Below the pieces are notes generated by a model. It ran no database searches and was not told the DNA's origin. It was given only the letters and a program-made list of their open reading frames with translations. The position numbers and the translations under genes were made by a program. From IMG/VR virus record IMGVR_UViG_3300046006_004189, positions 1 to 43,449 of that record: a stretch of DNA of 43,449 bases; one strand, 5' to 3'. The DNA is from a virus. Within the stretch, counting starts at the first letter, position 1; the number at the start of each line of letters is the position of its first letter. Shown one piece after another: positions 3,036-33,814 of this stretch.

Positions 3036-3036
3036 A

Positions 3037-3342
3037 TAATTAAAATATTAGTAGACAAAGATAAAGTCAGAGCAAGAAAATACTCTACTCTCGTGAATTT
3101 GTAGAAGCAATGTAAGACCTGTGGGCTTACTGTTTGATAGAACGGAAAACTATCCTATATTGTTAGTGATGCACTAAATAGTCGGCTACAAGACAATAAA
3201 CATAATTTGATGGGTAATTGCTCATTATGAATACCGTTGGGAGGCAAGATTTAAGCCTGTTTCAAATATCCCAAATGGGTAGTGAGTTAAACCATGCAAG
3301 AGTGCTACAGTAGGTGAAAAGCCTTGTCTAATATTTTAATTA
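3037..3342 (+). ncRNA. Large structured RNA element (~300 nt), unrecognised
   Basis: No ORF, and visibly richer in G+C than its surroundings. The ends are complementary: 3037-3050 pairs perfectly over 14 bp with 3329-3342, and GACAA (3054-3058) pairs with TTGTC (3324-3328) after a 3-nt bulge. Inside are further hairpins: GTAAG/CTTAC near 3113-3131, GATAG/CTATC near 3136-3154, TTAGTG/CACTAA around an ATG loop near 3161-3175, and AGGC/GCCT near 3242-3258 enclosed by TTGGGA/TCCCAA. I find no RNase P, tmRNA, T-box, cobalamin-riboswitch or group I core signature. It lies just upstream of a vWA gene. Confidence 0.65.
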
Positions 3343-3375
3343 AAAATAATTAATAAAATAAAAAGGAGAAAGAAA

Positions 3376-5004: not shown

Positions 5005-6050
5005 AATATTTTATTGATAAAACTTTTTTTGACAATATAAATACTCAAGAAAAATCTTATATTCTTGGTTTTTTATATGCAGATGGGTACAATTATGAGA
5101 AAAAAGGTTCTATAAAAATTAGATTACATATACAGGATGAAGAGTTATTATTAAAATTCAGAGATATAATATATATAAATAATGAAAGACCATTATATTA
5201 TATGAATAATTATTGTGAATTAGTTATTGATAATGTGTATATGTCTAAACAATTAGCAAAATTAGGATGTCACCAAGCAAAAAGCAAGTCTTTATCATTC
5301 CCAAAATTTTTAAATGAAGATTTAATTTCTCATTTTATTAGAGGTGTATTTGATGGGGATGGCTGCATATCTTTAAATAAACTTAAAAATGGTACAAAAA
5401 AAACATTATTTTCAATTATAGGTTATCGTCCTTTTATTTCTGCAATAAATGAAATTATTACTAATAAATGTAATTTAAATTGCAATAAATTAATTGATTA
5501 TAAAAATAAATCTTCAGATATTGCAACACTTGCATATAGTGGGTGTAGACAAAATATGAAAATTAGAGAATATCTTTATAAAGATGCTAAAATTTATTTA
5601 AAACGTAAATATAATAAATTTATCAAATTAGGAACAGAAGAATGGAATACATATAAAAAACCTTGTTGTTGTAAAATGTGTGAAAAAAGATTAACTACAA
5701 AATTTGAACATAAAAACGAATTTTATTGTTATAAATGTTTTATGAATAATTTTTACATTTCAAAAACTAATAAGTCAAATAATATAATTATATATAATGA
5801 ATATTGCATATTATATATAAAAGATAAAAACATTTATTTTGACATTGAAGATATTGATAAGGTGAATCAATATAAATGGAATATTGAAAAAAAGTATATT
5901 ATTTCAAGAACAAGATATCCAAAAAAAGGTATATATTTACAAAGATTAATTTTAAATTTAACAGAAAATCAATATATTAGATTTAAAGACGGAGATCCTT
6001 ATAACTGTAGAAAATTAAATTTGGAGGTATATGAAAAAAATGAAAATTAA
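5001..6050 (+). CDS. LAGLIDADG homing endonuclease with C-terminal zinc ribbon and AP2/HNH-like domain
   Basis: 349 aa. Two LAGLIDADG motifs (ILGFLYADG at about 21-29 and FIRGVFDGDG at about 112-121) give a single-chain endonuclease. A Cys-rich patch (CCCKMCEKR, then YCYKC; about 223-245) follows. The C-terminal 80 residues resemble the DNA-binding segment usually joined to HNH homing enzymes (EYCILYIKDKNIYFDIED, then YLQRLILNL, then NCRKLNLEVYE). It starts inside the exonuclease stop (ATGA) and overlaps the next gene by 20 nt, so it is wedged between two operon genes without an intron. Probably a selfish free-standing element. Confidence 0.85.
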   Translation: MKYFIDKTFFDNINTQEKSYILGFLYADGYNYEKKGSIKIRLHIQDEELLLKFRDIIYINNERPLYYMNNYCELVIDNVYMSKQLAKLGCHQAKSKSLSFPKFLNEDLISHFIRGVFDGDGCISLNKLKNGTKKTLFSIIGYRPFISAINEIITNKCNLNCNKLIDYKNKSSDIATLAYSGCRQNMKIREYLYKDAKIYLKRKYNKFIKLGTEEWNTYKKPCCCKMCEKRLTTKFEHKNEFYCYKCFMNNFYISKTNKSNNIIIYNEYCILYIKDKNIYFDIEDIDKVNQYKWNIEKKYIISRTRYPKKGIYLQRLILNLTENQYIRFKDGDPYNCRKLNLEVYEKNEN

Positions 6051-7083
6051 AAATATTATAGATAGGTCAGAATATAATTTTATTAGAGAAAATCATCATT
6101 TAAAATCAAATATAATTCTTCTTGCTTTAGGTGGTTCTTATGCATATGGATTAAATCAAAAAAATAGCGATATCGATCTTAGAGGCTTTGCTTTTAATAA
6201 ACCAAATGAGATTATTGGAAGAACTCCTGATTTTGAACAAGTTGTTGATACTAATACTGATACAACTGTATATAGTTTAAAGAAAATGATAGAATTGTTA
6301 GTTTCTAACAATCCAAATTGCTTAGAAATTATAGGATGTAAACCAGAACATTACTTAATTTTCAATCAAATAGGACAACAATTAATTGATAATAAAAAAC
6401 TGTTTATATCTCAAAAATCAATTTATACATTTGGTGGTTATTCAAATGCACAATTAAGACGATTACAAGCTTCTTTGGCAAGAGATTATCCTCAATCAGA
6501 AAAAGAACAACATATTATGCAAAGTATAAATCATGCAATGGTTGATTTCCATAGAAGATATGAGGATTTTGACAATGGTGCAATAAAATTATATATAGAT
6601 AAATCAAGAAATGAAGATTTAGAAAATGAAATTTTTATTGATGTTAATTTAAAACATTATCCTTTAAGAGATTATAAAAATATGCAAAGTGATATGAATA
6701 ATATTGTTAAAGATTATCAAAAACTAACTGGAAGAAACAAAAAGAAAGATGATTTGCATCTTAATAAGCATATCCAACATCTTTTTAGATTAAATTTAAT
6801 GTTATTTGATATCCTAGAAAAAGAAGAATTAAATACTTATAGAGAGAATGACAAAGATTTTTTATTACAAATTAGGAATGGTTTATTTATGGATGAAGAA
6901 AAAAGGCAATTAAATCAAGGATTTTATGATTTATTAAATGAACATGAAAAAAGATTAGAATATGCTAAAAAACATACTTGCCTACAACTTGAACCAGATT
7001 ATGTTAAAATAGAAGAAATATTAATGGATGCAAATGAATATATAGTAAATAAAGATAAAGAAATATATATGACTATTTATTAA
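6031..7083 (+). CDS. YcgL/RlaP-type nucleotidyltransferase
   Basis: 350 aa. ALGGSYAYGL (GGS at 34-36) followed by NSDIDLRG (DID at 47-49) is the pol-beta nucleotidyltransferase signature. The later pattern (YTFGGYSNAQLRRL, then HAMVDFHRR) matches COG3541/RlaP proteins, found next to RNA ligases. A likely role is nucleotide addition in RNA repair or modification, but the substrate is unknown. Two in-frame ATGs (6031 and 6040) compete: GGAGG at 6023-6027 is very close to the first and 12 nt from the second. Confidence 0.8.
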   Translation: MKKMKIKNIIDRSEYNFIRENHHLKSNIILLALGGSYAYGLNQKNSDIDLRGFAFNKPNEIIGRTPDFEQVVDTNTDTTVYSLKKMIELLVSNNPNCLEIIGCKPEHYLIFNQIGQQLIDNKKLFISQKSIYTFGGYSNAQLRRLQASLARDYPQSEKEQHIMQSINHAMVDFHRRYEDFDNGAIKLYIDKSRNEDLENEIFIDVNLKHYPLRDYKNMQSDMNNIVKDYQKLTGRNKKKDDLHLNKHIQHLFRLNLMLFDILEKEELNTYRENDKDFLLQIRNGLFMDEEKRQLNQGFYDLLNEHEKRLEYAKKHTCLQLEPDYVKIEEILMDANEYIVNKDKEIYMTIY

Positions 7084-7095
7084 AAGGAGAAGATT

Positions 7096-7629
7096 ATGGC
7101 TATAACAAAATTTAGAGATGTTTATGATTTCTTAAGTAGTTTTTATGTTTCAGATGTTCTGTATGATGGAATTTTATATAGAAGTTCAGAATCAGCTTAT
7201 CAAGCTCAAAAGACATTGGATATAGAAGAAAGAAAGTTTTTTGCAAATAGAAGTGCTGATGCATCTAAATTTGAGGGAAGACAGTTGGATATTAGAGAGG
7301 ATTGGGAAGATGTTAAGCTGAAATATATGTATGAAATTGTAAAAGCTAAATTTACTCAAAATGAAAGTTTAAAAAGAATGTTATTAAATACTAAATATGA
7401 AACTTTAATTGAGATTAATTGGTGGCATGATAATTTTTACGGAAACTGTAACTGTATTAAATGTCAAAATGAATTTGGACATAATCACTTGGGTGAAATA
7501 TTAATGAAAGTAAGATCTGAAATAAGAAAATCAGAAAAAGATAAACCTCGTATTTTAGGAATAGATTTAGCATCAGATCAATGGGGTAGAGGTTTATATC
7601 AATGTACATCAATAAAAAAGGAGAAATAA
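7096..7629 (+). CDS. NADAR (YbiA-like) family protein
   Basis: 177 aa. FRDVYDFLSSFYVSDVLYDG, SSESAYQAQKT, RSADASKFEGR, DWEDVKLKYMYEIVKAKF, and WWHDNFYGNC with NHLGEILMKVR are the ordered motifs of the NADAR/YbiA fold. Family members hydrolyse N-glycosidic bonds, including ADP-ribose removal from guanine in DarT-type systems. A C-terminal tail from about residue 147 (PRILGIDLASDQWG) lies beyond the usual domain. RBS AAAAGGAGAAG. Near a second NADAR-like gene (8593) and the CCA enzyme. Confidence 0.88.
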   Translation: MAITKFRDVYDFLSSFYVSDVLYDGILYRSSESAYQAQKTLDIEERKFFANRSADASKFEGRQLDIREDWEDVKLKYMYEIVKAKFTQNESLKRMLLNTKYETLIEINWWHDNFYGNCNCIKCQNEFGHNHLGEILMKVRSEIRKSEKDKPRILGIDLASDQWGRGLYQCTSIKKEK

Positions 7630-9059: not shown

Positions 9060-10430
9060 ATGATAGATAATATACAACTTAATATACCTTCAGATGTTTC
9101 CTTTATTTTGGATTTATTAAATTCATCAAGATATAAATCTTACATTGTTGGAGGCTGTGTTCGTGACATATTACTAGATAAAGAACCAAAAGATTGGGAT
9201 ATAACTACTGATGCAACTCCAACTCAAGTAATAGAAGTTTTTAATAATTTTAGAGTTATTGAAACAGGAATCCAGCATGGAACAGTTTCAGTTTTAATTA
9301 ATGATGTAATTTATGAAGTTACAAGCTTTAGAATTGATGGTGAATATACTGATAATAGAAGACCAAATTCTGTAGAATTTACAAGCAATTTAGAGGATGA
9401 TTTAAAGAGACGTGACTTTACTATTAATGCAATGGCATATAACCCAACTGAGGGTTTAATAGATTTATTTAATGGTCAAGAAGATTTAAATAATGAAATA
9501 ATTAGATGTGTAGGTATTCCAAATGAAAGATTTAATGAAGATGGTCTTAGAATTTTAAGAGCATTAAGATTTGCAAGTGTACTATGTTTTGAAATTGAAA
9601 AAGAAACAAGTATATCAGTTTTTTATAATAGAGATTTGTTAAGGAATATTTCTAAAGAAAGAATAGCTGTTGAGTTTAATAAAATACTTATGGCAGAAAA
9701 CTCTTATGATATATTAATGGAGTTTAAAGAAGTTTTTTCTGTTTTTATTTCTGAATTAATTCCAACATTTGACTTTAATCAAAACAACCCTTATCATACT
9801 TTAGATATTTATGAGCATATGTGTGTTAGCACTTATAATGTACAACAAGATTTAGTTTTAAAATTAACTATGTTTCTACATGATATTGGTAAGCCTTTAT
9901 GTTATACAGAAACTTTTAATGATGAGTTAAATAAAAACATAGGTCACTTTTATGGGCATGCTAAAATTAGTTCAGAAATAGTAGAAGTTATTTTAAGAAG
10001 ATTAAAATATGATAATGATACTATTAGAAATGTAGTACAATTAGTTTTTTATCATGATATTTTGTTTATAAACACTGAAACTTATATAAAAAAACTATTA
10101 AATAAAATATCAGAAAAAACTTTTAGACAATTAATTAAAGTTAGAATAGCTGATATAGAAGCTCAGAATCCTATATATTCAGATGAAAGAATTAATAAAG
10201 TTTTAGAAGTTGAAAAAACTTTAAATAAAGTTATTTCTGAGCAGCAATGTTTTTGTTTAAAAGAACTTACAATTAATGGTGATATATTAATTGAAATTGG
10301 ATTTAAAGGTGTTGAAATAGGTAATATTCTAAAAGATATTTTGGATAAAGTTATTAATGATGAATTAAATAATATAGAAGAAGATTTAATTTTATATGCA
10401 AAAAATATTTATTTTCAAAAAAAGTATTGA
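9060..10430 (+). CDS. cca: CCA tRNA nucleotidyltransferase (class II, with HD domain)
   Basis: 456 aa. IVGGCVRDILL (31-36 core), KDWDITT with catalytic DxD (D45, D47), HGTVSVLI, RRPNSVEF, and DLKRRDFTINAMAYNP give the complete class II CCA-adding head. The neck motif NERFNEDGLRILRALRFA selects the base. An HD domain follows (YHTLDIYEHM, then FLHDIGKP, then GHAKISSEIV). It adds or repairs 3'-CCA on tRNAs, useful for phage tRNAs or tRNA-like RNAs lacking encoded CCA (see 26101-26270). Its stop codon is part of the next promoter's -35. Confidence 0.93.
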   Translation: MIDNIQLNIPSDVSFILDLLNSSRYKSYIVGGCVRDILLDKEPKDWDITTDATPTQVIEVFNNFRVIETGIQHGTVSVLINDVIYEVTSFRIDGEYTDNRRPNSVEFTSNLEDDLKRRDFTINAMAYNPTEGLIDLFNGQEDLNNEIIRCVGIPNERFNEDGLRILRALRFASVLCFEIEKETSISVFYNRDLLRNISKERIAVEFNKILMAENSYDILMEFKEVFSVFISELIPTFDFNQNNPYHTLDIYEHMCVSTYNVQQDLVLKLTMFLHDIGKPLCYTETFNDELNKNIGHFYGHAKISSEIVEVILRRLKYDNDTIRNVVQLVFYHDILFINTETYIKKLLNKISEKTFRQLIKVRIADIEAQNPIYSDERINKVLEVEKTLNKVISEQQCFCLKELTINGDILIEIGFKGVEIGNILKDILDKVINDELNNIEEDLILYAKNIYFQKKY

Positions 10431-18141: not shown

Positions 18142-20601
18142 ATGCAGTATATTTACAAGTTTTATAATAAAAATGATGAATGTTTGTATGTGGGTAAAAC
18201 AAACAGATTGTCAAGTAGATTTTCACAGCACAAAAGAGATAAGCTTTGGTTTAAAGAAATTGAATATATTATGACAGCACAATGCTTAAAAGAGTTTATG
18301 ATAGATATGTATGAGTTATATTATATCAATACTTTAAGTCCAAAACATAATAGGAAAGATATAAACATTAAACATGTAGACTTTTATCATGAAGAATTAA
18401 TATTTAAAAAATATAAAAATTTTAAGAAAGAGGACAATCAAATGAAAACAATTATTGGAAAGGCACAATTGCCATTTTCAGAAACACAAGCAAAGAATGT
18501 AACAATAGTAGAACTTAAAACAGAAGAAAAAATTAAAGATGGAGTTAGCCATCATATCCTATTAGCAGACTGTTCAGGAAGTATGAGCAGTAATCTTTCT
18601 AAATTAAAAACTCAAATTAAGAGTGTTATGGAAACTTTATTGCAAATTCCAAATTCTTATGTATCTGTTATCACATATTCAGGACATAAGGAAAGTAAAA
18701 GAATATTAAGTGCAATTAAATGTGATGATATGACTTATAAAATGAATGATGTATATTCTATTCTTGACAAAGAAATTTACATCAAAGGGGTTACAGTAAT
18801 GTCAGAACCATTAGAAATGTCAATTGATATTTGTAAATCATTAGTTGGAATATGTGATAAAAATCATATTGCTTTATTTACAGATGGATGCCTTGTCCCT
18901 TGGGATTGGTCTACTTCAGAAGAAGAAAAGAAATGTTTTGCTGTTGCTGAAATTTGCAAGAAAGAAAATATTTTCTTAAATGCAATTGGATTTGGTCAGT
19001 ATTATGATAGAAGATTCCTGACTAAATTAATTGAAGTAGCTGGGAATGGTGATGTATTGCATATTGATAATATTAATAGCTATTATGATGTTATTATAAA
19101 TACTATTAGAAAAATTGATGATATTGAATTAATTGCTACAAAAGTTGTTGTTTCTAGTATGTGTTTAGATTTGAAAACAGGTAATATAGGAACAGAATTA
19201 ACTTTATATGGTGTAGAAAATTTTATTGCAATTATAGACAATGGATCTAGTGAAGTTTATATTAATGATGAATTATTAGATTTACAAACTTCTAAAACAA
19301 TTCCACAAGATTATATTAATGATTATTATTATGCAATATCTAAATATCATTTATCAGAAGAGGATATTGATAGTTATGAATATATAATTAAAAATCTTGG
19401 AGATGTAAACTTATATAGTAAAACATCTAATTGTTATTCTTTTATTGAAAAAGGAAATGCTTTAAACTTAGTTAATTCAATGTTACAAGATAAGTCTTTA
19501 AGATTTGAAAAAGGGTATCAAGTATTTAAATTAGATGATATAAATGAACCTTTATGTGCATTAGAAATATTATCTAAGATTATATTAGATGAAAACAGTC
19601 AAATCTATTGGGACTTAAATACTCCTTATAATAGAATTACTCAAAAAACAAATACAGTTGAAGATAATATTGCTTTTAAAAGACAAGAGAGTGGATTAAT
19701 TCCAGTATATGATTTAAGTATTGGTAGTGAGAAACTTAATATTGGAATTAAGGTTGGAATTCCTGGTGTTGTTTCTGATTCTATTAGTAGACTATCAGCA
19801 GATGCTAAGATTTTTAGAGATTATAATGTAATTAATGGTGGTAATATAAATGTTCCTTATTTAAATGCAAAATTATCTCCTGCTTTAGTTCAAGAATTGT
19901 CTGAAATGGGCATAATTGAAAAGAATGTTCAATTTAGTTTTGTTGGTGGTATTGAAATTTACAAGATTAATTTAGTTGGTATAAAGTCAGCAAACAAAAG
20001 ATTGTTGAAATCAATGAAATTGTCTGAAATCAAAACCACATTAAAAAGAATTGCTGAATTAAAATGTGAACAATGGGCAGTTAATAAAAGAATCAAAGAA
20101 ATTGTTGGAGATAATGATAAACTTGATTTTGCAACAAATTTATCTTTTGAAGAAATTGAAATTAGAAAAGCATTAAGAATAGATGAAAAAGGTATATATC
20201 AACCATTAGCAGTTGAAAAAGATACTGAATCTAAATTTGATGTATATCCTGCAATTTTCTTAACTTGGGACATTAAGTATTCAGAGAAAAAAGGAAAAGA
20301 TGCTTGTTGGGCAATAGTTGAAACTGAAACTGATTTAATTGGTTTAAAATCAAGATTAGAAGCTGTTAGAAAAGAAAAGAGAGAACTTGATACAAAAGTA
20401 AATACTGTTAGAATAGCATCTGGTGTAATTAATAAATCTGCAATGTTATTTGATACAGAGTTAGAGAAAGAAAAAACTGTAACAGATAAAATTCTTGGAA
20501 TTAATACTGTTGTAAATGGTAGAATTAAAGAGTTTAAAAAGGTTGTAGATGAAGACATTATCACTCAACAAAAATGGTTACAGATGATAAAATGTAATTA
20601 A
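18142..20601 (+). CDS. GIY-YIG nuclease domain fused to a large vWA protein
   Basis: 819 aa. Residues 1-75: a GIY-YIG domain (YIYKF, ECLYVGKT, RLSSRFSQHKR, catalytic Glu in MYELYYIN, terminal SPKHN). From about residue 101: a vWA domain with MIDAS LADCSGSMSS (D143, S145, S147), GVTVMSEPLEMS, and FTDGCLVPWD, then about 480 residues of unrecognised sequence with a charged helical C-terminus. M101 (18442) has its own RBS (AGAAAGAGGA, 8 nt), so a separate 719-aa vWA protein may also be made. Likely a homing nuclease gene fused to a vWA gene. Cytoplasmic; partner unknown. Confidence 0.8.
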   Translation: MQYIYKFYNKNDECLYVGKTNRLSSRFSQHKRDKLWFKEIEYIMTAQCLKEFMIDMYELYYINTLSPKHNRKDINIKHVDFYHEELIFKKYKNFKKEDNQMKTIIGKAQLPFSETQAKNVTIVELKTEEKIKDGVSHHILLADCSGSMSSNLSKLKTQIKSVMETLLQIPNSYVSVITYSGHKESKRILSAIKCDDMTYKMNDVYSILDKEIYIKGVTVMSEPLEMSIDICKSLVGICDKNHIALFTDGCLVPWDWSTSEEEKKCFAVAEICKKENIFLNAIGFGQYYDRRFLTKLIEVAGNGDVLHIDNINSYYDVIINTIRKIDDIELIATKVVVSSMCLDLKTGNIGTELTLYGVENFIAIIDNGSSEVYINDELLDLQTSKTIPQDYINDYYYAISKYHLSEEDIDSYEYIIKNLGDVNLYSKTSNCYSFIEKGNALNLVNSMLQDKSLRFEKGYQVFKLDDINEPLCALEILSKIILDENSQIYWDLNTPYNRITQKTNTVEDNIAFKRQESGLIPVYDLSIGSEKLNIGIKVGIPGVVSDSISRLSADAKIFRDYNVINGGNINVPYLNAKLSPALVQELSEMGIIEKNVQFSFVGGIEIYKINLVGIKSANKRLLKSMKLSEIKTTLKRIAELKCEQWAVNKRIKEIVGDNDKLDFATNLSFEEIEIRKALRIDEKGIYQPLAVEKDTESKFDVYPAIFLTWDIKYSEKKGKDACWAIVETETDLIGLKSRLEAVRKEKRELDTKVNTVRIASGVINKSAMLFDTELEKEKTVTDKILGINTVVNGRIKEFKKVVDEDIITQQKWLQMIKCN

Positions 20602-24921: not shown

Positions 24922-26028
24922 ATGAATAAAAAATTCAATTATAGGAAATTTGAGGATACATCATTAAATAATTTAGTTGATAATTTAAATAATTTAACAG
25001 AAAAAAGTATTAATAAGTTAAATAATGAAAATGAATATGAATCATTAAATAAGAATTTTAATATCGAGTTTATTAAAAAAATAACAGAATTATCAAATTT
25101 AATATGGGTAGATTTAGACACAATATTAAAAGATAATATTTATAAAAATGATTTGTTTAAAAATAATCTTATTTTATTATTAACTCAGGCAATTAGTTTT
25201 GGAGTACCAACTGTTTTAAAAGCGAAGTCTACTGACATAATTGAAATTGAACAAATAGGATTTGGGGATTGTGCAAGATATTTATTAACTAAAGAAAATT
25301 TAAGTATTTTTAATGAGGGATATGATGAAAAAATATTATCATATAATAATTTAAATGAATGTGTTGAATTTCCAGAGTATAATGAATATGCTATTAAAAC
25401 ATTAAAAAAATCAGTTTTTTGTACTATTGATTGGAAAAAAGTAAGTGAGAGTAAGTTTGATTGGGGGAAACTAATAGAACAAATAGCAATGTTATATGCT
25501 AACCAATATTTAAATCCTTATGCACAAAAAGTATTTAATTTAATTTTACAAAATAAAGATTTTGATTTTATAAATGAAAAAGAAATTAAACATATTTATA
25601 TATCAGATATTGTTAAAAAAATTAAAATTAACAATTCTTGTGGATTAGCTATTGCTAATTTTGGTAAATTTAATAAATATTTTGTAGATGCTTATTGGAG
25701 AAAACATACGGTTGTTGATAATAATGATTATTTAAATAGATTTGGAAGAGATTATTTTGAATACAATATTTTCCAAGATCCTGGATTTATGACTTATGGT
25801 CATTCTCAATTAGTTGAAACAAATATAACAAATTTAAACAATCAATATGTTTATGTAATAGAAACAATAGAAAAACCATTTAAAATAGTTATTGAGGGAG
25901 ATAGTACAGATGTAAAAGAAAACACAACTCAAAAAAATGAAATACTTTTAACATTAGATATTAATATGAGAATTGGAATGGATATAATATTAGGAAATAA
26001 TATAGAAGTATTTTCAGCAATTAGATAA
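24922..26028 (+). CDS. Unidentified 368-aa protein; capsid-like features possible
   Basis: N-terminal 60 residues are Asn/Leu-rich and helical (LNNLVDNLNNLTEKS), like a scaffold or coiled-coil segment. The rest is mixed alpha/beta, and the end (PFKIVIEGDSTD, then LTLDINMRIGMDIILG) recalls the C-terminal strands of HK97-type coat proteins. I cannot confirm this and the neighbours are not virion genes. Last gene before the promoter at 26066. RBS weak (AATAGGAT). Confidence 0.65.
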   Translation: MNKKFNYRKFEDTSLNNLVDNLNNLTEKSINKLNNENEYESLNKNFNIEFIKKITELSNLIWVDLDTILKDNIYKNDLFKNNLILLLTQAISFGVPTVLKAKSTDIIEIEQIGFGDCARYLLTKENLSIFNEGYDEKILSYNNLNECVEFPEYNEYAIKTLKKSVFCTIDWKKVSESKFDWGKLIEQIAMLYANQYLNPYAQKVFNLILQNKDFDFINEKEIKHIYISDIVKKIKINNSCGLAIANFGKFNKYFVDAYWRKHTVVDNNDYLNRFGRDYFEYNIFQDPGFMTYGHSQLVETNITNLNNQYVYVIETIEKPFKIVIEGDSTDVKENTTQKNEILLTLDINMRIGMDIILGNNIEVFSAIR

Positions 26029-26065
26029 AAATAAAAAAAAATATAAAAAATATTTCCAAAAACTA

Positions 26066-26094
26066 TTGACAAAATAACAAAAGTATGCTATACT
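26066..26094 (+). promoter_or_regulatory. Sigma-70-type promoter placed at the 5' end of a structured RNA
   Basis: TTGACA (26066-26071), 17 bp, TATACT (26089-26094) in AAAAGTATGCTATACT. The predicted start (about 26101) is 3 nt before the tRNA-like acceptor strand. Confidence 0.88.
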
Positions 26095-26100
26095 ATGCTT

Positions 26101-26270
26101 ACAGCTTGAGATAACAATTAATTTTAGGTTGTGAGCATATTTTTTATTAAGGGAAGTAGTTATAAATTAAGCAGGAACTACACACTGTCTCATTTTGGGG
26201 TTAGGGGCAGACGAGTTAGATTAGGAAAATAACAGAGATGTTAAATTGGTTCAAGTCCAATTTCTAGCAT
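26101..26270 (+). ncRNA. tRNA-like RNA with a ~100-nt insertion at the anticodon arm
   Basis: No ORF. T-arm ATTGG-TTCAAGT-CCAAT (26245-26261) is canonical. The next seven bases TTCTAGC (26262-26268) pair with GCTTGAG (26104-26110) except for one T-T mismatch, with A as discriminator. A D-arm ACAA/TTGT (26114-26117 with 26129-26132) has an 11-nt loop. AGCAT (26134-26138) pairs with ATGTT (26238-26242) as an anticodon-position stem enclosing 99 nt. That insertion holds GTAGTT/AACTAC (26156-26161 with 26176-26181), TGTCT/AGACG (26186-26190 with 26209-26213) around a G-rich loop, and GTTA/TAAC. CCA is not encoded. The 2-nt variable region is too short for a normal tRNA. Confidence 0.6.
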
Positions 26271-26306
26271 ATTTAAAAGAAATTACTTAAAGGAGAAAAT
26301 AAAATT

Positions 26307-26531
26307 ATGTTATGTGTAAGATGTGGAGATTGCTGTATAAGATTTGAAATACCAGAATTAAATAAAAGAGCAGGAGTAAGATGTCAACATTTAACTGAAA
26401 ATAATTTATGCAAATTATGGGATAAACCTGAAAGACCAAAAGTTTGCAATAACCATGATTATCCTGCTAGTATATGCCCTATTGGAATTAATAAATTAAA
26501 GGAGTTTAAAAATGAAAGCTGTATTTTATAA
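26307..26531 (+). CDS. Short cysteine-cluster protein (YkgJ-like)
   Basis: 74 aa. VRCGDCCIRF (CxxCC), then RCQHLTENNLCKLWDKP, and VCNNH with ASICP: the order of Cys residues mirrors the YkgJ-type protein at 24447 in a compact form. Probable metal-binding protein. RBS AAAGGAG. It is the first gene after the tRNA-like RNA and overlaps the next gene by 20 nt. Confidence 0.75.
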   Translation: MLCVRCGDCCIRFEIPELNKRAGVRCQHLTENNLCKLWDKPERPKVCNNHDYPASICPIGINKLKEFKNESCIL

Positions 26532-26886: not shown

Positions 26887-27666
26887 ATGAGTGCAAAGAG
26901 ATTTAAAGCAGGAGATAAAGTTAAGGTTAAAGATAATTTAGTTGTTGATAACAATTATGATAAAACATTGTTTGTATCATTTATGGAACAATACAAAGGA
27001 AAAACTTATGAAATAGAGAGAGTTAATAATAATTCATATTATCTTTCAAATTGTAATTATTGGTGTTTTTCAGATGAAATGCTTGAACCAATAAAAACTC
27101 CTTTTAAAATGGGTGATAAAGTTAAATGTATAGATGATACTATCTATATGCTTATCAAAAAAGATAAAAATTATACTATAAGAGCTATATCTTCAGACAA
27201 AGAAACAGTCAAATTAGAGGAAATTGGTGATGGTTATTGGTATGAGGTAGAAAGATTTGAATTAGTAGATGAATATTTTGAACAAACAACAAATTGTTTA
27301 GATACAGTTTTAGAAAAATTAGGACTACAATTAGAAGAAGAATTTTTAAATAATGGTGAGTTTTTTAGCTTTACTGATATTGTGCATCATTATTTAAATC
27401 ATTTAATAATTGGTCAAATTAAATACAGAAAAATCAAACCAATGCCAGCACCAACAAAAGAAGAACAAAAGGTATTGGATGCAGCTAAAGTATTAGGAAT
27501 AAAATGGGTTGCTAAAGATGAAAATGCAGAAGTATATTTTTATACAATAATGCCTTCTAAAAATCAGTTTTGTTGGTCAGTTGAAAATGAGAGTTCTTAT
27601 ATTGATGCTTGTATGGATTTTAGTTTTTTGTCATGGGAAGATGAAGAACCATATGAGATTAAGTAA
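26887..27666 (+). CDS. Two-SH3-like-module protein, paralogue of the 32972 gene
   Basis: 259 aa. Two tandem modules start with FKAGDKVKVKDNL and FKMGDKVKCIDDT, the first closing with FSDEMLEP. A linker (TTNCLDTVLEKLGLQLEEEF) follows, then a C-terminal domain (EEQKVLDAAKVLGIKWVAKD to SFLSWEDEEPYEIK). The whole layout matches the protein at 32972, and the first module also occurs at 11372. Likely a phage-specific binding protein. RBS AAAGGAG. Confidence 0.78.
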   Translation: MSAKRFKAGDKVKVKDNLVVDNNYDKTLFVSFMEQYKGKTYEIERVNNNSYYLSNCNYWCFSDEMLEPIKTPFKMGDKVKCIDDTIYMLIKKDKNYTIRAISSDKETVKLEEIGDGYWYEVERFELVDEYFEQTTNCLDTVLEKLGLQLEEEFLNNGEFFSFTDIVHHYLNHLIIGQIKYRKIKPMPAPTKEEQKVLDAAKVLGIKWVAKDENAEVYFYTIMPSKNQFCWSVENESSYIDACMDFSFLSWEDEEPYEIK

Positions 27667-32971: not shown

Positions 32972-33814
32972 ATGAATGTAAATAAATTTAAAATTGGAGA
33001 TAAGGTTAAGGTAATAGATAATATTGAAGTAGAGACAAAAATATATGGAGATATATATTTTGTATCAGATATGGAACAATACAAATCTAAAACATTAACA
33101 ATAGTAGATATAGCTAAAGATTGGGTTGGTGATGAATTTTATAGGATCAAAGAAGATGATCAAAGATGGTTTTGGGATGATACTATGATTGAATTAGTTG
33201 AAAAAAGTATTAAACTAGGTGATAAAGTAAAATGTATAAATAGTTCAAATTGTGGATTAATATATGAAGATAGAATTTATACTGTAAGTTTAATATCCTC
33301 TGAATTAGATGCAATTAAATTAGAAGAGATAGATATTGACTACTATTATTGTATTGAAGATTTTGAGTTAGTAGATGATTATGAGGGAAAAACTACAAAT
33401 TGTCTTGATGTAATATTGGATAAATTAGGTATAGAATTAGAAGAAGAGTTTGAAGTTAAAACTTTATATGGCAATAATTGGGAAAAATTTAAGATGAAAG
33501 AAAATGGTTTATGTTATAGTAATGGTGGTAGAGATAGTGTAGAGTTTGCAAATTTATTAACTGGGCAAACTGAATACAGAAAAATCAAACCAATTCCACA
33601 ACCTTCAGCAGAGGAACAAAAGGTTTTAGATGCTGCTAAGGTATTAGGATATAATTGGGTTTCAAAAGATGAAAATGGTAAATGTTTCTTTTATGTAATT
33701 AAACCTACTAAAATCCTTGATATGTGGAGTAGTGCTAATGGTAATCATTCAGAATCAATGTTTGACTTTAAATTTCTAAATTGGAAAGACCAAAACCCAT
33801 ATGAAATTAAGTAA
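32972..33814 (+). CDS. Two-SH3-like-module protein, paralogue of the 26887 gene
   Basis: 280 aa. Modules FKIGDKVKVIDNI and IKLGDKVKCINSS are followed by TTNCLDVILDKLGIELEEEF and a C-terminal domain EEQKVLDAAKVLGYNWVSKD to NWKDQNPYEIK. It is about 20 residues longer than the 26887 paralogue, with an insert near residues 155-190. The second halves of the two genes are also similar in DNA, so they probably duplicated recently. RBS AAGGAG. Confidence 0.78.
   Translation: MNVNKFKIGDKVKVIDNIEVETKIYGDIYFVSDMEQYKSKTLTIVDIAKDWVGDEFYRIKEDDQRWFWDDTMIELVEKSIKLGDKVKCINSSNCGLIYEDRIYTVSLISSELDAIKLEEIDIDYYYCIEDFELVDDYEGKTTNCLDVILDKLGIELEEEFEVKTLYGNNWEKFKMKENGLCYSNGGRDSVEFANLLTGQTEYRKIKPIPQPSAEEQKVLDAAKVLGYNWVSKDENGKCFFYVIKPTKILDMWSSANGNHSESMFDFKFLNWKDQNPYEIK

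Follow-up and report, generated by a model that had tools for sequence, protein, structure and literature searches.

Introduction

The tRNA-like domain of tmRNA (RF00023) combines an acceptor stem with a T-arm; its D region is reduced and an anticodon is missing. T-arm-bearing tRNA mimicry is also known in a noncoding RNA, the bacterial Y RNA-like YrlA. In phages, tRNAs that bear introns have been reported, and called enigmatic, in a description of the Lak megaphages (PMC6784885).

Here we analyze a locus of a 43,449-base IMG/VR virus record (referred to as the window), a very A+T-rich phage fragment of 25% G+C, for which a preliminary description had proposed an RNA with tRNA acceptor, D and T arms and a 99-nt insertion at the anticodon arm. 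Our preferred reading, to which we assign a probability of roughly 0.45, is that the locus is not a tRNA gene but an mRNA leader that holds a small tRNA-like module, 3' of a promoter on which a terminator is superimposed; its anatomy is better supported than its function. The locus resembles bacterial tRNA (RF00005) and the Lak tRNAs in its canonical T-arm, its acceptor 3' strand with discriminator and the CCA enzyme encoded by the phage. It differs from them in that the leader is without D-arm invariants, an anticodon arm or an Rfam or ARAGORN call, and in that the 5' strands belong to a terminator-like hairpin. The acceptor, T-arm, reduced D region and missing anticodon are also those of the tmRNA domain; the leader, however, is far too short for a tmRNA, and no tag frame or pseudoknots were noticed. 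In agreement with the preliminary description, which saw no tmRNA features, ARAGORN (-m) gave no tmRNA call and Rfam no tmRNA match. The locus is similar to YrlA in its T-arm-bearing tRNA mimicry, whereas no match to YrlA or Y RNA was found in Rfam at E values up to 10 (region 25900-26500), and no TROVE/Ro60 domain was detected in the 40 of 77 listed window ORFs that were scanned with Pfam.

Results and Discussion

Gene content and relatives of the phage fragment

The window was found to have 77 ORFs of at least 60 aa and to encode an NAD-dependent ligase, ribonucleotide reductase, NAD synthase, NAPRTase and a TnpB-like protein. The phage CCA enzyme anticipated by the preliminary description was located by protein match (CCA-adding enzyme/tRNA nucleotidyltransferase, 9060-10430, + strand), and an RlaP-like nucleotidyltransferase, assigned by Pfam to an RNA repair pathway, is encoded at 6031-7083 (+ strand). 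No close relatives of the window were found. The most similar records have single genes in common with it, at identities that reach about 59% along most of a gene and 66% in a single stretch of 71 residues, and scans of viral_contigs with three single window proteins gave no matches. Gene 24922, which flanks the gap under study, had no relatives in repeated searches. The gene on the other side, the first ORF 3' of the leader (26307-26531, + strand; 74 aa, with a CxxCxxCC-domain resemblance that is weak and below the Pfam cut-off), matched four records at 35-43% in one search and no relative in two others. Elsewhere in the window, the genes at 26887-27666 and 32972-33814 are paralogous (about 50% identical), both matching mainly PHROGs of unknown function, and an 819-aa protein encoded at 18142-20601 has a GIY-YIG domain and, C-terminal to it, a weak vWA match that is below the Pfam cut-off.

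A promoter with an unusually long leader

The gap between these two genes (26029-26306, 278 nt) is the second largest noncoding gap in the ORF set examined. As the preliminary description had stated, a promoter lies 5' of the RNA: a sigma-70-type TTGACA-N17-TATACT with TG extension was identified at 26066-26094 on the + strand. A promoter pattern drawn from the copies in the window itself has 10 matches there at up to 3 mismatches, this promoter among them, where 0.01 would be expected by chance. The predicted transcription start is near 26101, 7 nt 3' of the -10 element, and would give a leader RNA of about 206 nt (26101-26306, + strand) 5' of ORF 26307. When the nine promoters with a following ORF were compared, seven of the others had leaders of 22-79 nt. 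For the remaining promoter 445 nt is listed, as its ORF's listed start sits upstream of the promoter end, and an in-frame ATG (506) is found about 24 nt downstream of the predicted start.

The leader is richer in G+C (34% in 26101-26269 and 38% in 26147-26240) than the window, and a Shine-Dalgarno-like AGGAG is present at 26291-26295 (+ strand) 5' of ORF 26307. In the minimum free energy (MFE) fold, a small hairpin GUAGUU/AACUAC (26156-26181, + strand) is followed by a hairpin CUGUCUC/GGGGCAG with a G-rich loop (26185-26210, + strand). A small ORF inside the leader (33 aa, GTG start) was considered and judged by eye to be noncoding.

A terminator-like hairpin overlaps the start region

Sequence analysis and folding revealed a 19-pair hairpin with an 8-nt loop at 26094-26139 (+ strand), with a U6 run (26140-26145) directly after the stem; about 165 nt of the leader remain 3' of it. 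Its 19 pairs are uninterrupted when G-U is counted, and it is the longest perfect hairpin of the window on either strand (loops of 3-10 nt). Among 60 dinucleotide-shuffled windows, 3 had hairpins of at least 17 pairs (+ strand only) and none had such a hairpin with at least 4 G-C pairs. The hairpin is specific for the + strand, with an energy of -22.2 kcal/mol in full + strand RNA compared to -4.9 kcal/mol for the minus strand. The stable hairpin and the six T directly after it are like those of an intrinsic (Rho-independent) terminator. By contrast to such a terminator, the hairpin overlaps the start region of a promoter and only 4 of its 19 pairs are G-C. The hairpin and immediate U run by which intrinsic terminators are recognized are thus both present here, and termination is predicted from them.

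Because of this overlap, the full hairpin would form only in read-through RNA. Polymerase that arrives from the genes upstream would make the complete hairpin and stop at U6. An RNA that starts at 26101 is without the first 7 nt of the hairpin; it has 12 pairs left (-10.6 kcal/mol), the base of the stem is 7 nt from the U run, and transcription begun at the local promoter would be expected to continue into the downstream genes. The region 26096-26275 was found to fold better than shuffled sequence (z -3.95 and -3.46 in two runs). This excess stability is attributed to the 19-pair hairpin, since stability was weakly better than that of shuffles from 26101 (z -1.43 for 26101-26275) and no better from 26138 (z -0.61 for 26138-26275). 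The full leader, 26101-26306, was likewise weakly better (z -2.1).

A canonical T-arm and a compact tRNA-like domain

The T-arm of the preliminary description was confirmed. ATTGG-TTCAAGT-CCAAT at 26245-26261 (+ strand) has G53-C61, T54, T55, C56 and A58, its stem has a pair probability of 0.87-0.90, and no other strict T-arm is present on the two strands of the window. In 1000 shuffled windows, strict T-arms occurred at an average of 0.119, with at least one in 11.3%; the expectation is 0.0004 per 280-nt stretch of one strand, for a site that was chosen after the T-arm had been seen. Examination of other records (1.07 Mb of pieces from eight records) revealed that 14 of the 15 strict T-arms outside called tRNAs were on pieces that have called tRNAs.

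A tRNA covariance model (R1) was constructed from 55 intron-less tRNAs of distantly related phages, hand-chosen from called tRNAs. When the window was searched on both strands with filters off, the best match of R1 was a 55-nt domain at 26215-26269 on the + strand (17.4 bits, with a rough E value of 0.0069), and the next match scored 9.8 bits. The same domain was recovered with default filters over 26050-26320, and the MFE fold yields its closing stem independently of R1. The domain consists of an acceptor-like stem GUUAGAU/UUCUAGC (6 of 7 positions paired, with one U-U mismatch and one U-G pair), U8 and A9, GGAAAA, a hairpin UAACA-GAGA-UGUUA, the T-arm and a discriminator A; U8 is present and there is no D-arm. 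We envision that the acceptor-like stem would be stacked on the T-arm, with the GAGA-capped hairpin replacing the anticodon arm. CCA is not encoded after A26269, as had been noted before. The proposal of a tRNA mimic is retained in a reduced form, for this compact domain and not for a full mimic with a 99-nt insertion.

The 17.4 bits are not to be over-read, since in a control piece (L285 8550-9150; L numbers designate our loci) R1 with filters off gave 20.7 bits for a T-arm with a wrong acceptor and 14.9 bits for a T-arm alone; most of the score at 26215-26269 is likely that of the T-arm. Of 1000 shuffled windows, 1.8% had a T-arm with a compact acceptor and U8, and for the T-arm of the real window two compact acceptors are available (26215 and 26194). 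Together with the acceptor of the preliminary description (26104), these are candidates of 6 of 7 pairs, and a 6/7 match was found somewhere upstream by chance in 925 of 1000 cases.

A cloverleaf with a 99-nt insertion is not supported

The pairs of the proposed tRNA do exist as described. The acceptor strands 26104-26110 and 26262-26268 pair at 6 of 7 positions (one U-U mismatch, one G-U), the D stem is ACAA/UUGU, and a 5-bp stem AGCAU/AUGUU encloses 99 nt (26139-26237). The cloverleaf drawn from these pairs was not supported by folding, shuffling or R1. The acceptor 5' strand, D-arm and anticodon 5' strand (26104-26138) are all inside the 19-pair hairpin, which explains them better. The D loop is without the canonical GG, A14 and A21, U8 is missing and the variable region is 2 nt. 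The acceptor and D stem had pair probabilities of 0.000 and the anticodon stem did not exceed 0.006, and constraining the fold to the cloverleaf cost 9.1 kcal/mol relative to the minimum. With the T-arm kept in place, 218 of 2000 shufflings of the 150 nt upstream produced a long-insert architecture that was as good. Searches with ARAGORN and Rfam, which had been proposed as a check, came out negative: ARAGORN made no default tRNA call with or without introns, its 68 calls across the window at 80% thresholds are noise, and RF00005 had no match at E values up to 10. An Rfam search of region 25900-26500 at E up to 10 returned four sub-threshold matches, of E 1.1 or worse.

R1 was examined for its ability to span inserts by use of six ARAGORN-called tRNAs with inserts of at least 12 nt (seven pieces, default filters), none of which had a 99-nt insert. 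Four were spanned (L285 8915-9042, 53.7 bits; L285 8789-8906, 53.2; L285 8655-8780, 36.7; L153 4209-4328, 36.8), with inserts of 25-44 nt and scores of 36.7-53.7 bits. Two were missed: L304 7187-7306 was matched over 7222-7303 (16.9 bits) and L169 19127-19283 over 19160-19239 (35.9 bits). With filters off, none of the three L285 control tRNAs was spanned. At the locus under study, R1 did not span the 99-nt insert with default filters or with filters off; this miss is not conclusive alone, because two of the six controls were missed and no control had a 99-nt insert.

Searches for homologues of the leader RNA

No homologue was found when the RNA was compared to phages by blastn (best E 0.08 among the matches listed, for 20 of 47 records) or by local blastn over the fetched loci. 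Comparison of the RNA with nineteen chosen records gave short stretches (best E 0.016). Among the matches listed, viral_contigs loci with the promoter pattern aligned by local blastn mainly over the promoter, and a pattern search for the G-rich hairpin gave no match.

Interpretation of the locus

The reading as a leader with a terminator/promoter overlap and a tRNA-like module is favored by the length and strand specificity of the hairpin, the long and G+C-richer leader, the unique T-arm, the R1 score (17.4 versus 9.8 bits), the recovery of the same stem by MFE, the rarity of a T-arm with compact acceptor (1.8% of shuffles) and the presence of genes for a CCA enzyme and an RlaP-like protein. 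Against it are the lack of an RNA homologue and hence of covariation, flanking genes with no or distant relatives, a score that probably comes mostly from the T-arm, an acceptor-like stem that is imperfect, of a 6/7 quality common by chance and rivaled by the second acceptor at 26194, the weak or missing excess stability from 26101 on, and the 4 of 19 G-C pairs. The tRNA-like domain may be a handle for tRNA-processing enzymes (e.g., RNase P, RNase Z or the phage CCA enzyme) that would cut or protect the leader just 5' of the ribosome-binding site of ORF 26307, a role that we consider doubtful. It is a long shot that the module is a minimal tRNA mimic of a new kind, i.e., a minihelix of acceptor and T-arm in which the D-arm is missing and a hairpin with a GAGA cap replaces the anticodon arm. 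As such, it would serve the phage as a substrate for enzymes that act on tRNA, or as a decoy for them (RNase P, the CCA enzyme of the phage or tRNA nucleases of the host directed against phages), and would link tRNA attack or repair to expression of the downstream operon.

Of the other explanations, a plain leader with a terminator/promoter overlap, in which the T-arm is a coincidental hairpin, is possible although on balance improbable. The T-arm frequency of 11.3% in shuffled windows, the 1.8% for T-arm and compact acceptor together, and the shuffle-like folding of the remaining leader are compatible with coincidence. It is less readily reconciled with the position of the sole T-arm of the window on the transcribed strand of the second-largest noncoding gap (0.0004 expected per 280 nt, for a site picked post hoc) or with the R1 E value of 0.0069 for the window, itself rough. 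A relic of a tRNA gene or tRNA insert, decayed to the T-arm and acceptor 3' strand, is unlikely. Distantly related large phages do have tRNA arrays with truncated, interrupted and permuted tRNAs, and at least one array unit (L142 9518-9636) is directly 3' of a promoter; yet no acceptor 5' strand (acceptor-like 7-mer) was found within 80 nt 3' of the T-arm, which also led us to reject a circularly permuted tRNA. The ACAGCAA motif of such arrays is absent from the + strand of the leader, where ACAGC at 26101 is a chance-level occurrence, and the 3' half is, by eye, like the kin tRNAs mainly through the T-arm.

An intron-bearing tRNA, or a full tRNA mimic whose anticodon arm carries 99 inserted nt, is the reading to which we give least credence, and as a tRNA with a 99-nt intron it was rejected. 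That its pairs exist, that phage tRNA introns are on record in the Lak description (PMC6784885), that tRNAs of distantly related phages have inserts and that R1 missed two of six insert-bearing controls (including L304 7187-7306) speak for it, and the last of these points led us to raise its odds slightly. These points are set against the lack of an ARAGORN or RF00005 call, acceptor and D pair probabilities of 0.000, the 9.1 kcal/mol penalty, the missing D-loop invariants, the 2-nt variable region, a chance-level architecture (218 of 2000 shuffles as good) and the preference of R1 for another acceptor even though it spanned inserts of 25-44 nt in four of six controls.

If the terminator/promoter overlap of our preferred reading alone is real, the locus is a tidy but ordinary insulation device. 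If the module works as a tRNA mimic within an mRNA leader, a phage with genes for both a CCA enzyme and an RlaP-like repair protein would have one of its operons tied to the processing of tRNA or to defence that targets tRNA.

Candidate permuted tRNA genes and interrupted tRNAs in distantly related phages

Arrays of tRNAs were found in several large phage records that share with the window its promoter type or genes such as those for the ligase and the RlaP-like protein. In these arrays (L198-L274; e.g., L205 1004, L236, L237, L254 and L202 6132), a repeated, intron-like element AAGACNN-A(A/U)ACAGCAAYUU ... NNGUCUU brackets tRNA sequences. The 5' pattern of the element had 66 distinct matches in 77 loci, 61 of which were followed by enough sequence (at least 180 nt from the match start). 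Within 180 nt, 41 of these 61 had a closing hexamer complementary to their own dinucleotide, compared to an average of about 1.3 when a different dinucleotide was taken. Nine dinucleotide pairs occur, of which three are represented by a single copy. On the sequences compared, the stem of the bracket element covaries. Several of the remaining 5' pattern matches fall, by eye, in apparent coding sequence. Between the strands of the element, ordinary, truncated and circularly permuted tRNAs and anticodon-arm-like hairpins were recognized by eye. No bracket-type element was seen in the leader of the window.

Permuted tRNAs were searched for without use of this signature in 387 loci (4.87 Mb, overlaps included), by demanding acceptors with all 7 bp formed (G-U counted as a pair) and a linker length of 3-11 nt. 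By this approach, 19 distinct candidates were detected in large phages that are distantly related or have the promoter type of the window, in the order T-arm and acceptor 3' strand, linker (often GCCA...), acceptor 5' strand and D-arm. Their T-arms are at L142 8002 and 9620, L153 5322, L169 19043, L202 6183, L211 6050, L215 3440, L222 2918 and 11801 (-), L227 12286, L228 230 and 1189, L240 7515, L247 5069 and 5498 (-), L258 4807, L263 11464 (-), L264 1163 (-) and L308 13937, where (-) marks numbering along the reverse complement. C[AT]GCAA is found no more than 110 nt upstream of each of the 19, an association that is biased for 15 of them because their loci or records were fetched with that signature; the other four (L142 twice, L153 and L169) are in records fetched by promoter. 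None of the candidates listed came from the 80 loci (1.48 Mb) fetched by RlaP-like protein.

A similar hairpin is present as a small anticodon-arm insert in non-permuted tRNAs (e.g., L285 8652-8780 and L261 10319-10584). Anticodon-arm inserts of about 23-57 nt were found in tRNAs at L285 8652-9042 (-), L261 10114-10584 (-), L262 4536, L153 4208, L260 1387 and 1526 (-) and L237 970, and many such inserts hold a GUCU.../AGAC hairpin with C[AT]GCAA. ARAGORN made 25 distinct calls with inserts of at least 12 nt, some of them probably false or nested, and C[AT]GCAA was present in 14 and absent in 11. The anticodon-arm inserts may represent a small intron class.

The word 'phage' is absent from the main text of a 2014 review of circularly permuted tRNA genes (PMC3978253). 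Among the literature matches listed, titles and the beginnings of abstracts revealed nothing on phage-encoded permuted tRNAs, in a search whose scope did not extend to preprints and most subscription papers. The permuted tRNA genes of these phages are thus apparently undescribed. With permuted and interrupted tRNA genes in hand, many of them uncalled by ARAGORN, the unexplained problem of phage tRNA introns becomes testable, and it is in this side result on distantly related phages that the wider value of the analysis lies.

Other structured RNAs were observed next to these arrays and in the window. A tmRNA gene was identified by Rfam within a phage tRNA array (L142 9176-9465, 82.4 bits), and a ROOL RNA adjoins another (L169 357-980, 292 bits). 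The largest gap of the window (3036-3375; 340 nt, 32% G+C), 5' of a gene with a weak vWA match, had no Rfam match better than E 8 and was found to fold more stably than shuffled sequence (z -2.43), making it a second candidate structured RNA.
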